This document shows, in pieces, positions 7,210 through 13,319 of a stretch of 50,803 nt of DNA. Under the pieces are notes generated by a model, which was not told the DNA's origin, ran no database searches, and was given only the letters and a program-made list of their open reading frames with translations. Position numbers and translations under genes: made by a program. Source of the stretch: Bacteroidaceae bacterium (GTDB taxonomy: Bacteria; Bacteroidota; Bacteroidia; Bacteroidales; Bacteroidaceae). Each line of letters begins with the position of its first letter. Position 1 is the stretch's first letter. Location: contig JAFUVE010000035.1 of NCBI GenBank assembly GCA_017483765.1, positions 1 to 50,803 on the forward strand. The letters are read 5' to 3'.

Positions 7210-8733
7210 TTATAATTCGATTGCCTTGATCTGGCTGAGCACCTCTTCCCCTCTCTCGATAGCCTGCAGCATGTCGAACACCTTGTCGCTCCATCCAGCA
7301 ATGAGGAACACATCGTCGTCTTTGACGGAGAGCGGGGTGCTTCCGTAGCCACAGAGGTCGAACAGATAGATCTTGGCCTCAGGTGCGACCTGCTTGTATG
7401 ACTTCCACGAGCGGCGGAGTGAATCGCCATCGCTGTAGGAACTGTTCCACATCTGGCAGTCGGTGAAGAAAAACACCTTGTCCACAACCGTCTTGTTTCT
7501 TGCCAGCCAGTTGATGACTTTGTGTCCGTTTGTGGAGAATCCGACCTTGTTCCCATATTTATGCATCTTATCCATGGACTTGAGCACATCGTTACCTGGA
7601 ACTTCCAGCGGTCTCCACACATCCCCGAAAATACCAGTCACCACTTCCTGGCAACGGGTCTTCATCAGCATGGCCAGCAACAGTCCGATGTCATAGTACT
7701 CTATCTTGCTATTAGCCGAGACAGGGCTTCTCATCGACCCACTCACGTCGCACGCCAAAAGTACGCGTGTGTCGGCGTCGAAGCCCGGGATATTCTCTGT
7801 CGACGCGCTTACGGCCTGCTCGAGTGCGGCTCCCAGCTCGCTGTGCTCCACATCGAACTCCCTCAACTCACGGTAAGCCGAGAGGAATCGGAACGGCAGC
7901 TGCCGTGATTTTCTTACAGCCTCCCTGTTGGCGAGATAGCTGCACACCGACCGTATCGTCTTATCCGCCACGTTCATTTTCAGCATATTGCGCAGATTAC
8001 GCAACGTGGCCATATAGCCCATCCGTCGGCTCTCCACGAGCTCTTCCCACTTACGGGCAAAAGCAGCTTCACGCTCAGCATTGTCGGAAAATTCCGTTTT
8101 TCCCAGTTCTGAGAGTTCCGTCTCCCAAGTATAAGGCGTGTCGAGGGTTCCCGTGACGATCTTGTCGAAAATGGCCTGCTGAGCAGCATCCTTGGCTTTA
8201 GGATGAACAAGGAAGAGTGCGTCGCGCAGCTTCACCTCGGCATTGTCGCGGTCATACTTGGCGAACTGGTACTCATCGAAGCGGTTGAATGCCGCCTTCA
8301 GTCCTTTGAGTATCTGATTTGAGACCTTGGCCAGCTTCTTTCGTTTGTCACCCGTAGGGTTCAACTTCTGATAGCAGGCCAGGAGCTCCGTGATTTCGTC
8401 AGCTCTCTGCACAACCTGCGCCACGGTACGTGCCACGAGGTCGTCGCCGCTGTGCACACTTGCCAATGCCACAGTCAGGAGCAACGGCACAGAGCGGAGG
8501 TTCATCTGTGTACGCGCATAGACAGCGAGACGAGCCACAAACTGCGGATCGGTCTTTTTCACCAGATTCTTGATGCGGTTGAGGCGCTCACCGCCTTTCT
8601 CATAGAAATTGTCGTTGAGCATGGAGGTGACAACAGCGGTGTAGAGTTCCATCTCCGCCGACATCATGTAAGCCCGTGCGCCCTCATGGTTGAGGGTCAG
8701 GTTCTGTTCTTTTGCTTTCTCGTTAAATTTCAT
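7210..8733 (-). CDS. rsr: Ro60/Rsr-type RNA-binding protein (TROVE + vWA)
   Basis: The 507-residue protein is a bacterial orthologue of the Ro 60 kDa autoantigen. Residues about 15-320 form the TROVE domain, a HEAT-repeat ring that binds Y RNA and the ends of misfolded RNAs in studied members (established for the family). Residues about 322-500 form a von Willebrand A domain with an intact MIDAS start, DVSGS (Asp329, Ser331, Ser333), and a later FFFTDC. In Deinococcus and Salmonella the partner Y RNA tethers Ro60 to the exonuclease PNPase. Here the gene is monocistronic: it has its own promoter about 330 bases upstream and its own terminator, and neither pnp nor rtcB is nearby. The long leader contains a candidate Y RNA at 8914-9012. 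Confidence 0.93.
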   Translation of the reverse strand: MKFNEKAKEQNLTLNHEGARAYMMSAEMELYTAVVTSMLNDNFYEKGGERLNRIKNLVKKTDPQFVARLAVYARTQMNLRSVPLLLTVALASVHSGDDLVARTVAQVVQRADEITELLACYQKLNPTGDKRKKLAKVSNQILKGLKAAFNRFDEYQFAKYDRDNAEVKLRDALFLVHPKAKDAAQQAIFDKIVTGTLDTPYTWETELSELGKTEFSDNAEREAAFARKWEELVESRRMGYMATLRNLRNMLKMNVADKTIRSVCSYLANREAVRKSRQLPFRFLSAYRELREFDVEHSELGAALEQAVSASTENIPGFDADTRVLLACDVSGSMRSPVSANSKIEYYDIGLLLAMLMKTRCQEVVTGIFGDVWRPLEVPGNDVLKSMDKMHKYGNKVGFSTNGHKVINWLARNKTVVDKVFFFTDCQMWNSSYSDGDSLRRSWKSYKQVAPEAKIYLFDLCGYGSTPLSVKDDDVFLIAGWSDKVFDMLQAIERGEEVLSQIKAIEL

Positions 8734-8775
8734 ATTTCTCGTGTTTATTTGGTTTTACATCGCGGTGCTACTTCA

Positions 8776-8821
8776 TGGAGGCCCAAAGCCGTTGTCTGAT
8801 GGCTCTTCCTCCACTAACGGC
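8776..8821 (-). other. Hairpin with competing partner in the Ro60 leader
   Basis: TGGAGG and CCTCCA (8776-8781 with 8808-8813) form a six-pair outer stem, enclosing AGAGCC with GGCTTT (8785-8790 with 8801-8806). A competing perfect stem is possible between 8788-8793 and 8816-8821 (GCCGTT with AACGGC), which would break the inner stem. It lies 40 to 90 bases before the start codon of the Ro60 gene. The structures are visible; a regulatory switch is only an inference. Confidence 0.45.
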
Positions 8822-8913
8822 AACCACGTATTGATCATGATTTACTTCATCTTTGTATTGCAGATATACTATTTTATATATGCCTACATGGAATTGGAGA
8901 GAAAAACAGAAAG

Positions 8914-9012
8914 GGAGTAAATGCGGTGATACATTCGCACAGAGACTTTAAAAAAAATGATGTATCTAAAATCACTCGAAGTAACCCTACGCTACGTCAA
9001 CCGCATTTCTCC
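8914..9012 (-). ncRNA. Candidate Y RNA upstream of Ro60
   Basis: The 99 bases on the minus strand fold into a Y-RNA-like shape. The ends form a 13-pair stem: GGAG and AAATGCGGT (9000-9012) pair with ACCGCATTT and CTCC (8914-8927), with a single bulged A at 8918. A bulge in the closing stem is also a feature of known Y RNAs. Directly stacked on this stem is a perfect seven-pair hairpin (8960-8966 with 8928-8934, GATACAT/ATGTATC) with a U-rich loop. A short hairpin TTACT-TCG-AGTGA (8972-8984) completes a three-way junction; its loop region contains TTCGA, like a tRNA T loop. After the stem comes a pyrimidine-rich run (CTTTCTGTTTTTCTC). It lies between a strong promoter and the Ro60 gene on the same strand. 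Whether it is processed or an independent transcript cannot be told from sequence. Confidence 0.55.
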
Positions 9013-9069
9013 ACTCATCCAGTTCACATTTCCCCCGGTTTCAAAGAGCTCTTATTTTTAATTTCGATG

Positions 9070-9106
9070 CAAAGTTAGGATTGTGCTACGCAAAAGTTCT
9101 GCGTAG
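9070..9106 (-). promoter_or_regulatory. Promoter of the Y RNA candidate and Ro60, with palindromic operator
   Basis: The -7 box TAACTTTG lies at 9070-9077 (minus strand), so transcription should start near 9063. Over the -33 region sits a perfect inverted repeat, CTACGCA and TGCGTAG, at 9086-9092 and 9100-9106, with a seven-base centre. Its position suggests an operator for a dimeric regulator (inference). The motif CTACGCTACG recurs inside the RNA candidate at 8987-8996. Confidence 0.65.
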
Positions 9107-9226
9107 ATAAAAAAATTTTTATTGTTGTCGTAAAAAATATGGTACTTCAGGAATATTTGTGGAAGAAAATCCTATATCGTTGTTTGACCGTGCTTCGCCG
9201 GTCAGATGTGCGGGCGAGCCGCCCAC

Positions 9227-9333
9227 TATCCCAGCCGATGTCCTGTCGGAATGAAAAAGGAGACCCAAAGTTCGACAGAGATGAAATCGGACGTGTATCC
9301 CAGCCGACGTCCTGTCGGAATGAAAAAGGGGAC
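9227..9333. repeat. Two 38-base direct repeats with a 31-base spacer
   Basis: Copies at 9227-9264 and 9296-9333 match at 36 of 38 positions. Each contains an internal hairpin, CCGA and TCGG around seven bases. Two small hairpins (GACCG/CGGTC and GGGCG/CGCCC) lie directly before copy 1. The spacing resembles a CRISPR unit, but there are only two copies and no cas genes. It is more likely a dispersed intergenic repeat. Confidence 0.8.
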
Positions 9334-9527
9334 AGCAGATGACAATAAAATTAATCACCACACGAAATCCTGAATAACCTAAAAAAATAGAGATGGAGAG
9401 CATATACAAGAGCCCGCGGGATGTCACACTGTAAATTCACCATTCAAGTAAATCATTTCTAATCAAGCAGATATGGGTATTTCCCCTATCGTATGGGAAA
9501 AATCCAATGGCAATTAGGGAATTAACA

Positions 9528-9614: not shown

Positions 9615-10379
9615 ATGAAAAAGTTATTACTCATGACCATGTTTCTCGCAGCGACGCTGACGATGAACGCCCTACCAATCGACGAAGCACAGCGTGAGGC
9701 CCTCTTCCTCACCGACAAGATGGCATACGAACTCGACCTGACCGAAGAGCAGTATGAACTGGCCTACGAGGTGAACCTGGACTATCTGCTCAGCATCAAC
9801 TACCACGGTGACCTTTACGGCACATGGTGGAGCCGCCGCAACGCAGACCTTCGCTATATTCTCTCCGACTATCAGTATCGTATCTACGTTGGGCTCAACT
9901 ACTTCTATCGCCCGTTGGCATGGAGAGGCGGCAGATGGTACTACCCAATCTACGGACGCTATGCTGACCGCTATCACTTCTATCGCGCCCGTCCTCACGG
10001 ATTCGGTGTTTACAGAGGAGGACACAACCGCATCCACGGACACTACAACAGGCCCATCCACCGTCCGCACGCCGGAAGAATCGGTAATCACCCAGGTGGA
10101 CATCCGGGAGGACACTACGGAGGACATCCGGGCGGACATCCAGGCGGACACGTAGGAGGCAACCATCCAGGTGGCAACTACAACAACCGCAACTACAATG
10201 GTGGCGGCAACCGCCCTGGAGGGAACTACAACGGCAACCACAACGACAATCGCAACTACAACGGTGGCGGCAACAACAGGAACTACAACGGCGGCGGCCA
10301 CCGTCCAGGCAACATCCGCTCACAGCAGAACCGCTCCAACAGCTCCGGACGAGTAGCAGCCCCTGGACGCCGCAGATAA
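9615..10379 (+). CDS. Secreted His/Gly/Asn-rich low-complexity protein
   Basis: I do not recognise a characterised family. The 254-residue product has a signal peptide (to about residue 20), then a folded-looking part of about 110 residues rich in Tyr, Trp and Arg, with acidic helix LDLTEEQYELAYEVN and later segments such as YRIYVGLNYFYRPL. From about residue 130 the chain is low complexity: GGHPGGH-type repeats, then NYNGGGN-type repeats, then a basic end. The His-rich part could bind metal ions (inference). The isoelectric point should be high. It has its own strong promoter and a 20-pair bidirectional terminator, so it is monocistronic. A calcium- or RNA-related function cannot be inferred. 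Confidence 0.85.
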   Translation: MKKLLLMTMFLAATLTMNALPIDEAQREALFLTDKMAYELDLTEEQYELAYEVNLDYLLSINYHGDLYGTWWSRRNADLRYILSDYQYRIYVGLNYFYRPLAWRGGRWYYPIYGRYADRYHFYRARPHGFGVYRGGHNRIHGHYNRPIHRPHAGRIGNHPGGHPGGHYGGHPGGHPGGHVGGNHPGGNYNNRNYNGGGNRPGGNYNGNHNDNRNYNGGGNNRNYNGGGHRPGNIRSQQNRSNSSGRVAAPGRRR

Positions 10380-12092: not shown

Positions 12093-13313
<1,221 letters not shown>

Positions 13314-13319
13314 TAAAAA

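Follow-up and report, generated by a model that had tools for sequence, protein, structure and literature searches.

A very probable Y RNA with a diverged second copy in the leader of a Ro60 gene from Bacteroidaceae

Described Y RNAs and the Ro60 leader

Among bacterial Y RNAs, YrlA of Salmonella (Rfam RF02553) is represented by the structure PDB 6CU1 (PMC8394870), and the Salmonella rsr-yrlBA-rtcBA operon is described as combining Y RNAs and Ro60 with a dedicated regulator, RtcR, and RNA repair genes (PMC7790460). In Deinococcus radiodurans, a Y RNA, the Ro60 orthologue and PNPase are described as forming RYPER, in which the head of the RNA tethers the nuclease (PMC4726728, PMC8394870). Ro60 binds vertebrate Y RNAs, by the published description, at a helix in which one strand carries a bulged C and the other a 3-nt bulge (PMC4726728). 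Ro60 ribonucleoproteins immunoprecipitated from Propionibacterium propionicum and Bacteroides thetaiotaomicron are stated to have included bacterial Y RNAs, and the same article, where it treats the work of Greiling et al., discusses Ro60 proteins of the phylum as possible triggers of human anti-Ro60 autoimmunity (PMC11277228). Among the titles and abstract openings of the matches listed, none was on a Y RNA of Prevotella or Bacteroidota, which is not a claim of absence from print. Chen et al. reportedly described Y RNAs in over 250 bacteria and phages in 2014, with the motif GNCGAAN0-1G, and species with bacterial Y RNAs are said there to have at least one with a tRNA-like domain. In other bacteria, tRNA-like heads have been proposed to engage PNPase.

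The window (the whole stretch of DNA that was analysed, 50,803 nt) encodes a Ro60/Rsr protein (Table 1), with the PDB sequence relatives Rsr (2nvo) and Ro60 (1yvp) and the closer TROVE-protein entries 9l5y and 9kop. Read along the minus strand, a palindrome is followed by the promoter element TAACTTTG (the Bacteroidota -7 consensus is TAnnTTTG), then by the leader and the Ro60 gene; transcription is expected to start near 9063. A preliminary description had placed a candidate Y RNA between promoter and Ro60 gene, and this placement holds, all three being on the minus strand; its account of the leader captured unit 1 and missed a second, diverged unit. From sequence comparison, we conclude that the region 9012-8914 is very probably a Y RNA with a diverged second copy beside it; in many related bacteria, rows of such RNAs adjoin this gene. 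The class is already known, and the RNA would be a further member, in a set spread across the phylum. Its identity as a Y RNA is supported by covariation, by an element that tracks Ro60 across the phylum, and by units with a tRNA-like domain, permuted as in bacterial Y RNAs, in the same genome. The naming of Prevotella as host was not established: the assembly is incomplete, and its closest relative to bear a name, L005, is an uncultured Prevotellaceae MAG.

Table 1. Features of the Ro60 locus and tRNA-headed units elsewhere in the same genome (G000).
Feature	Position	Strand	Basis or remark
Y RNA unit 1	8914..9012	-	R1 match 9006-8920, 61.9 bits, E 9.9e-16
Unit 1, extended closing stem	9012-9000/8927-8914	-	Comparative model, pairs checked
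Unit 1, past closing stem	Bulged U 8999; G8998-C8928; A8997-U8929; conserved unpaired C8996	-	
Unit 1, inner pairs G.U, U.G, A-U	8995-8993/8933-8931	-	
Unit 1, 3-nt bulge	8936-8934	-	
Unit 1, upper helix	8992-8985/8944-8937	-	Then UACUUC and variable A+T-rich interior
Y RNA unit 2, diverged	8759..8829	-	R1 24.3 bits, E 7.3e-5
Ro60/Rsr gene, 507 aa	7210..8733	-	TROVE PF05731 E 6.2e-27; vWA_Ro60 PF25045 E 7.3e-12
Promoter element TAACTTTG	9070..9077	-	Sequence and coordinates
Palindrome TACGCAGAACTTTTGCGTA	9087..9105	.	Candidate operator
Units with tRNA-like head in G000	L095 6047-6115; L096 2107-2193		Rfam YrlA match, below cut-off

The units share the layout of YrlA: the ends form a basal helix with an asymmetric internal loop, above which lie an upper helix and a head that varies. 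The 3' strand of the loop is cUuGucGcc in the YrlA consensus and YUGUNGC in the family captured by our covariance model (R1), with two units of locus L082 reading exactly CUUGUCGCC; the 5' strand is GNCGUA here and ggCgaAUG in the YrlA consensus, the YrlA motif at this position being GNCGAA. Sequence words of both the T-loop and the D-arm occur in 60 of the 177 units found by script, with the T-arm first in all 60, which is the permuted order of YrlA. Unlike YrlA, neither window unit carries a tRNA-like head, the units match the Rfam model below its cut-off or are unmatched, and up to seven occur per Ro60 gene. As in the Salmonella operon, the Y RNAs would share a transcription unit and a dedicated regulator with Ro60; where that operon has RtcR and RNA repair genes, this system has a palindrome, a -7 box and a WYL-type gene (33 of 82 loci). 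The likeness to RYPER of D. radiodurans is one by description, namely a Y RNA with a bacterial Ro60 orthologue, the tie to PNPase being known there; the vertebrate Y RNAs resemble these units in layout only, through the invariant unpaired C and the 3-nt bulge.

The Rfam YrlA model reported neither window unit, even at E ≤ 10. At Rfam cut-offs the window gave only a distant tRNA, and at E ≤ 10 the region 8600-9250 gave one RUF4 match, which we judge to be due to chance. No unit scored above the YrlA cut-off in 20 relatives, and no YrlA was reported at cut-off in 20 viral Ro60 loci searched as a bridge to that family; the gathering cut-off is 69 bits, and the best YrlA match in G000, at another locus, reached 42.3 bits. 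This work supplies the phylum with a Y RNA model tested by covariation, for RNAs that the bacterial model of Rfam misses.

Conserved fold of the units

Because the 12 other genomes of the genus sample yielded just one relative, the comparison was widened to further loci. A scan of species genomes for relatives kept the best 80 of 433 stretches; with four earlier loci added, and the duplicates L003 and L005 and the own locus (L001) removed, 81 loci were compared. Among the matches listed, the flanks had a common core, G-N-C-G-U-A, then ACUUC and, further on, UGUNGC, and the bare core word occurred 207 times forward and three times in reverse in the 81 loci. Because a regular expression on the 3' motif alone often ended at tRNA D-arms, a pairing-aware script was used instead, which found 177 units on the Ro60 strand, none antisense and none within Ro60. 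These units are distributed over 74 loci, some with units on both sides: 98 lie upstream (46 loci) and 79 downstream (37 loci) of Ro60. In rumen Bacteroidales they are mostly upstream, as in the window; in Flavobacterium, Pedobacter and similar loci they are downstream.

The seed alignment (A1) was built from 55 compact units in 38 loci, with the window and L002, its nearest relative, left out; under the pairing rule used for selection, a unit had to form at least 4 of 5 and at least 5 of 8 pairs, and its length could not exceed 102. Its fold begins with a basal helix, a bulged U, a G-C pair with an adjoining covarying pair and an invariant unpaired C, and continues inward with G.U, U.G and A-U; next come a bulge of 3 nt in the 3' strand, the eight-pair upper helix, a conserved ACUUC and the variable interior. 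Paired cells account for 92.2% of A1, versus 71.1% after shuffling and at most 58.3% with slid partners; 15 of the 19 modelled pairs changed on both sides (shuffled mean 11.6), cells with a double change number 241 versus 72 when shuffled, and the covariation score is 0.603 versus 0.206 when shuffled and at most 0.227 with slid partners. As A1 was picked with a pairing rule, these covariation figures lean to structure, which is not so for a test on units selected by sequence only; the pairs G9-C110, G12.U107 and A14-U105 are invariant in A1 and hence uninformative either way. The sequence-only selection, made to avoid choosing by pairing, holds 94 units from 50 loci (84 distinct): stem a is 92.3% paired versus 57.3% when dealt anew (z 18.3), and stem b is 88.5% paired versus 64.6% (z 18.7). 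Sixty-eight units have C-G as the inner pair, seven have U-A, four U-G and two A-U, and in three it is unpaired. A basal helix formed by the 5' and 3' ends, with a conserved internal loop, is thus supported by covariation. The preliminary description had proposed a covariance model and a search for compensatory changes, the absence of which would count against a Y RNA; such changes proved abundant.

The window was kept out of R1, and the core of unit 1 had already been seen when the motif was first recognised. After the two units (Table 1), the next best R1 match in the window scores 12.8 bits. The loop words of unit 1 are GACGUA and UGUAUC, and its sequence allows every one of the 26 pairs of the comparative model. 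Read along the minus strand, the region 9012-8914 has a folding energy of -31.1 kcal/mol (z -3.58), which 0 of 200 shuffles equalled. The plus strand likewise folds well (z -3.38), but this reading was dropped, as it is the minus strand that holds gene, promoter and conserved loop. In the energy fold the inner hairpins have 8, 11 and 4 pairs, close to the structure drawn in the preliminary description, and the energy model favours this fold over the comparative one by 5 to 10 kcal/mol (-31.1 unconstrained versus -21.3, or -25.7 with a free interior). The comparison, however, points to a single long helix interrupted by a conserved asymmetric internal loop, so that the inner hairpins are unsupported as the conserved form, the strand 8992-8985 pairing with 8944-8937 instead; the 13-pair bulged closing stem drawn there is retained. 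Between the window and L002 (Ro60 94% identical) the leaders are nearly the same, the interior of unit 1 differing most, in both length and sequence; in the conserved part of L002 unit 1, one change preserves a pair and one breaks a pair (A14-U105 to A-A).

Unit 2 departs further from the family. Its core, GCCGTTAG, carries an extra base, its 3' loop strand, GAAGTAGC, is shorter by one base, and UACUUC is lacking after the upper helix; its 3' end lies about 25 nt ahead of the Ro60 start codon. The L002 homologue scores 17.6 bits with R1, and unit 2 was absent from the R1 matches in the search of the whole of G000. No terminator or processing site able to free a unit was found, including between the units and the Ro60 gene.

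Co-occurrence with Ro60 and further arrays

At E ≤ 0.01, R1 gives 276 matches in the related loci, all on the Ro60 strand and none on the opposite strand. The window has a unit beside its Ro60 orthologue and on the same strand, and so do 77 of the 81 related loci; these counts are not of independent events because L008-L010 look alike, as do L016, L017 and L032. R1 matches 39 of the 43 loci that contributed no seed sequence, and the greatest number of units around one Ro60 gene is seven (L055). R1 misses L004, L011 (where coverage begins just 77 bases upstream), L012 and L080; once the filters are removed, L080 scores 35.9 bits and L004 a marginal 12.3 bits, and L011 and L012 show nothing above 8.6 bits. 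L012, with a Ro60 59% identical and 3 kb covered on either side, has no R1 unit. In viral contigs (L125-L144), 28 R1 units occur in 14 of 20 loci with Ro60 relatives (loci counted by eye), all on the Ro60 strand. Some of these 20 viral loci carry dense tRNA clusters.

Across 296 genomes of the phylum, R1 was found in 16 and Ro60 in 24; all 16 genomes with R1 have Ro60, and none of the 272 genomes without Ro60 carries the element (Fisher p 6.7e-21, with relatedness of genomes ignored). In the 15 of these R1 genomes other than G000, the listed units lie near Ro60, on the same contig and strand, as judged by eye. Under strict filters R1 was absent from eight of the 24 Ro60 genomes, three of which have a Ro60 54-55% identical. 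Among 301 genomes of the family, R1 and Ro60 were each found in eight and together in six (p 8e-10); in this sample, R1 without Ro60 was found in G083 (31 bits) and G099 (63.9 bits), and Ro60 without an R1 match, under stricter filters, in two of the eight (G032 and G269).

G000 contains four more R1 units, two on contig C29 and two on contig C90, none of them adjoining Ro60, of which one copy was found. In each array, one unit contains a YrlA-like tRNA module (42.3 and 29 bits with the Rfam YrlA model, below cut-off); this genome thus has two Y RNA units with a tRNA-like domain. The C29 array has a tRNA-Met gene 3 bases past its first unit and a third core, spotted by eye, that R1 scores at just 13 bits. 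Palindromes resembling the one in the window precede both arrays, and on C29 the palindrome is imperfect. The C29 array also adjoins a 138-aa ORF (L095 7020-7436) that has no Pfam match and is 49-75% identical to the N-terminus of the WYL/WCX-type gene of Ro60 loci. In the single-contig genome G115, arrays occur both at Ro60 (near 2,227 kb) and at 89 kb, so scattered arrays are not merely an assembly artefact. A search of G000, an assembly 70% complete, found no RtcB. Real tRNA genes occur among Y RNA units at L095 6150-6222, L017 2698-2771, L014 236-309, L070 2566-2847 and L075 2585-2846; tRNA processing could release adjoining Y RNA ends.

Proposed role, alternatives and regulation

We consider it highly probable that the Ro60 leader comprises two Y RNA units behind one promoter, with unit 1 excised and carrying a Ro60-bound handle and an exchangeable head. 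Both units would be transcribed together with Ro60 from the single promoter, which adjoins a possible operator, and unit 1 would most likely be excised to give an RNA of about 100 nt. As with other Y RNAs, the part bound by Ro60 would be the end-to-end helix, which includes the conserved loop (GNCGUA / UGUNNC) and, in its 3' strand, a 3-nt bulge. Binding would stabilise the RNA, which, lying on the outside of the ring, may in turn gate the entry of other RNAs. The variable interior would act as the exchangeable head, and tRNA-like heads would be supplied in trans by the two further arrays, which lie behind a similar promoter region and may share its regulation. Natural units with a common handle and differing heads would offer a ready test of Y RNA head function.

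The units might instead remain in the Ro60 messenger as a cis element, where Ro60 would act on its own leader, lowering translation or stabilising the message. The position of the units fits this, in that they lie upstream of Ro60 in the window and in 46 of 81 loci, unit 2 ends close to the start codon and no terminator was found between units and gene; however, the units are downstream of Ro60 in 37 of 81 loci, some interiors contain tRNA-like domains, and whole arrays lie away from Ro60 in G000 and G115, making cis control of Ro60 impossible there. On this balance we regard a cis element as an improbable explanation, though a cis role and a Y RNA role may exist side by side. Still less probable, and in our estimation quite unlikely, is that unit 1 is a decaying copy kept by chance, with the working Y RNAs in the two other arrays of G000. 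Such decay would fit the clear divergence of unit 2, the location of the tRNA-like Y RNAs elsewhere and the one conserved pair of unit 1 that is broken in L002, but unit 1 of the window retains every comparative pair and the conserved loop words, and the stems in L002 are otherwise kept while the interior varies. That the structure is a chance hairpin, terminator or inverted repeat with no tie to Ro60 is scarcely credible: it is a strong inverted repeat that folds on either strand, yet it belongs to a covarying conserved family with a strand bias of 276 to 0 and co-occurs with Ro60.

The palindrome at 9087-9105 is a possible operator of the Ro60/Y RNA promoter. In 49 of 82 loci a similar palindrome stands in the 1200 nt ahead of Ro60, whereas the opening 1200 nt of the ORF contain one in three of 82; by a loose pattern across the 82 loci, a -7-like box lies within 26 nt past the palindrome in 43 of 57 cases and on the other side in one of 57. 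The form ahead of the Ro60 -7 box in many relatives (L002-L084) is RCGCA-N7-TGCGY; TRCGCA-N5..7-TGCGYA fits seven places in G000, and the reversed pattern fits two. The WYL-type gene has copies in 35 of 82 loci; 33 of these loci have it upstream of Ro60 and on the other strand, at a distance of no more than 1.5 kb in 28 of the 33; both full-length examples checked (n = 2) contain WYL and WCX domains. More tentatively, as a possibility that we rate at somewhat worse than even, Ro60 in Bacteroidota may be served by a set of Y RNAs with one handle and varied heads (tRNA-like, hairpin or unstructured), encoded in arrays that a WYL-family regulator switches together at RCGCA-N7-TGCGY. Such a set would be organised in multi-unit arrays, some of which sit apart from Ro60 with real tRNA genes among the units, and the array expressed would set the client choice of Ro60.

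Three further features of the window were noted. At 9220-9335, CCCAGCCGAYGTCCTGTCGGAATGAAAAAGG is present in two copies, and about 40 bases of it recur at 12 further places in the genome with 82-100% identity; it is a small dispersed repeat. An ORF at 9615-10379 encodes a repetitive protein rich in His, Gly and Asn, with a signal-like N-terminus by eye and no Pfam match. The ORF at 12867-13316 has a terminal run of QTGRTG repeats, which suggests an intergenic short tandem repeat in the DNA.
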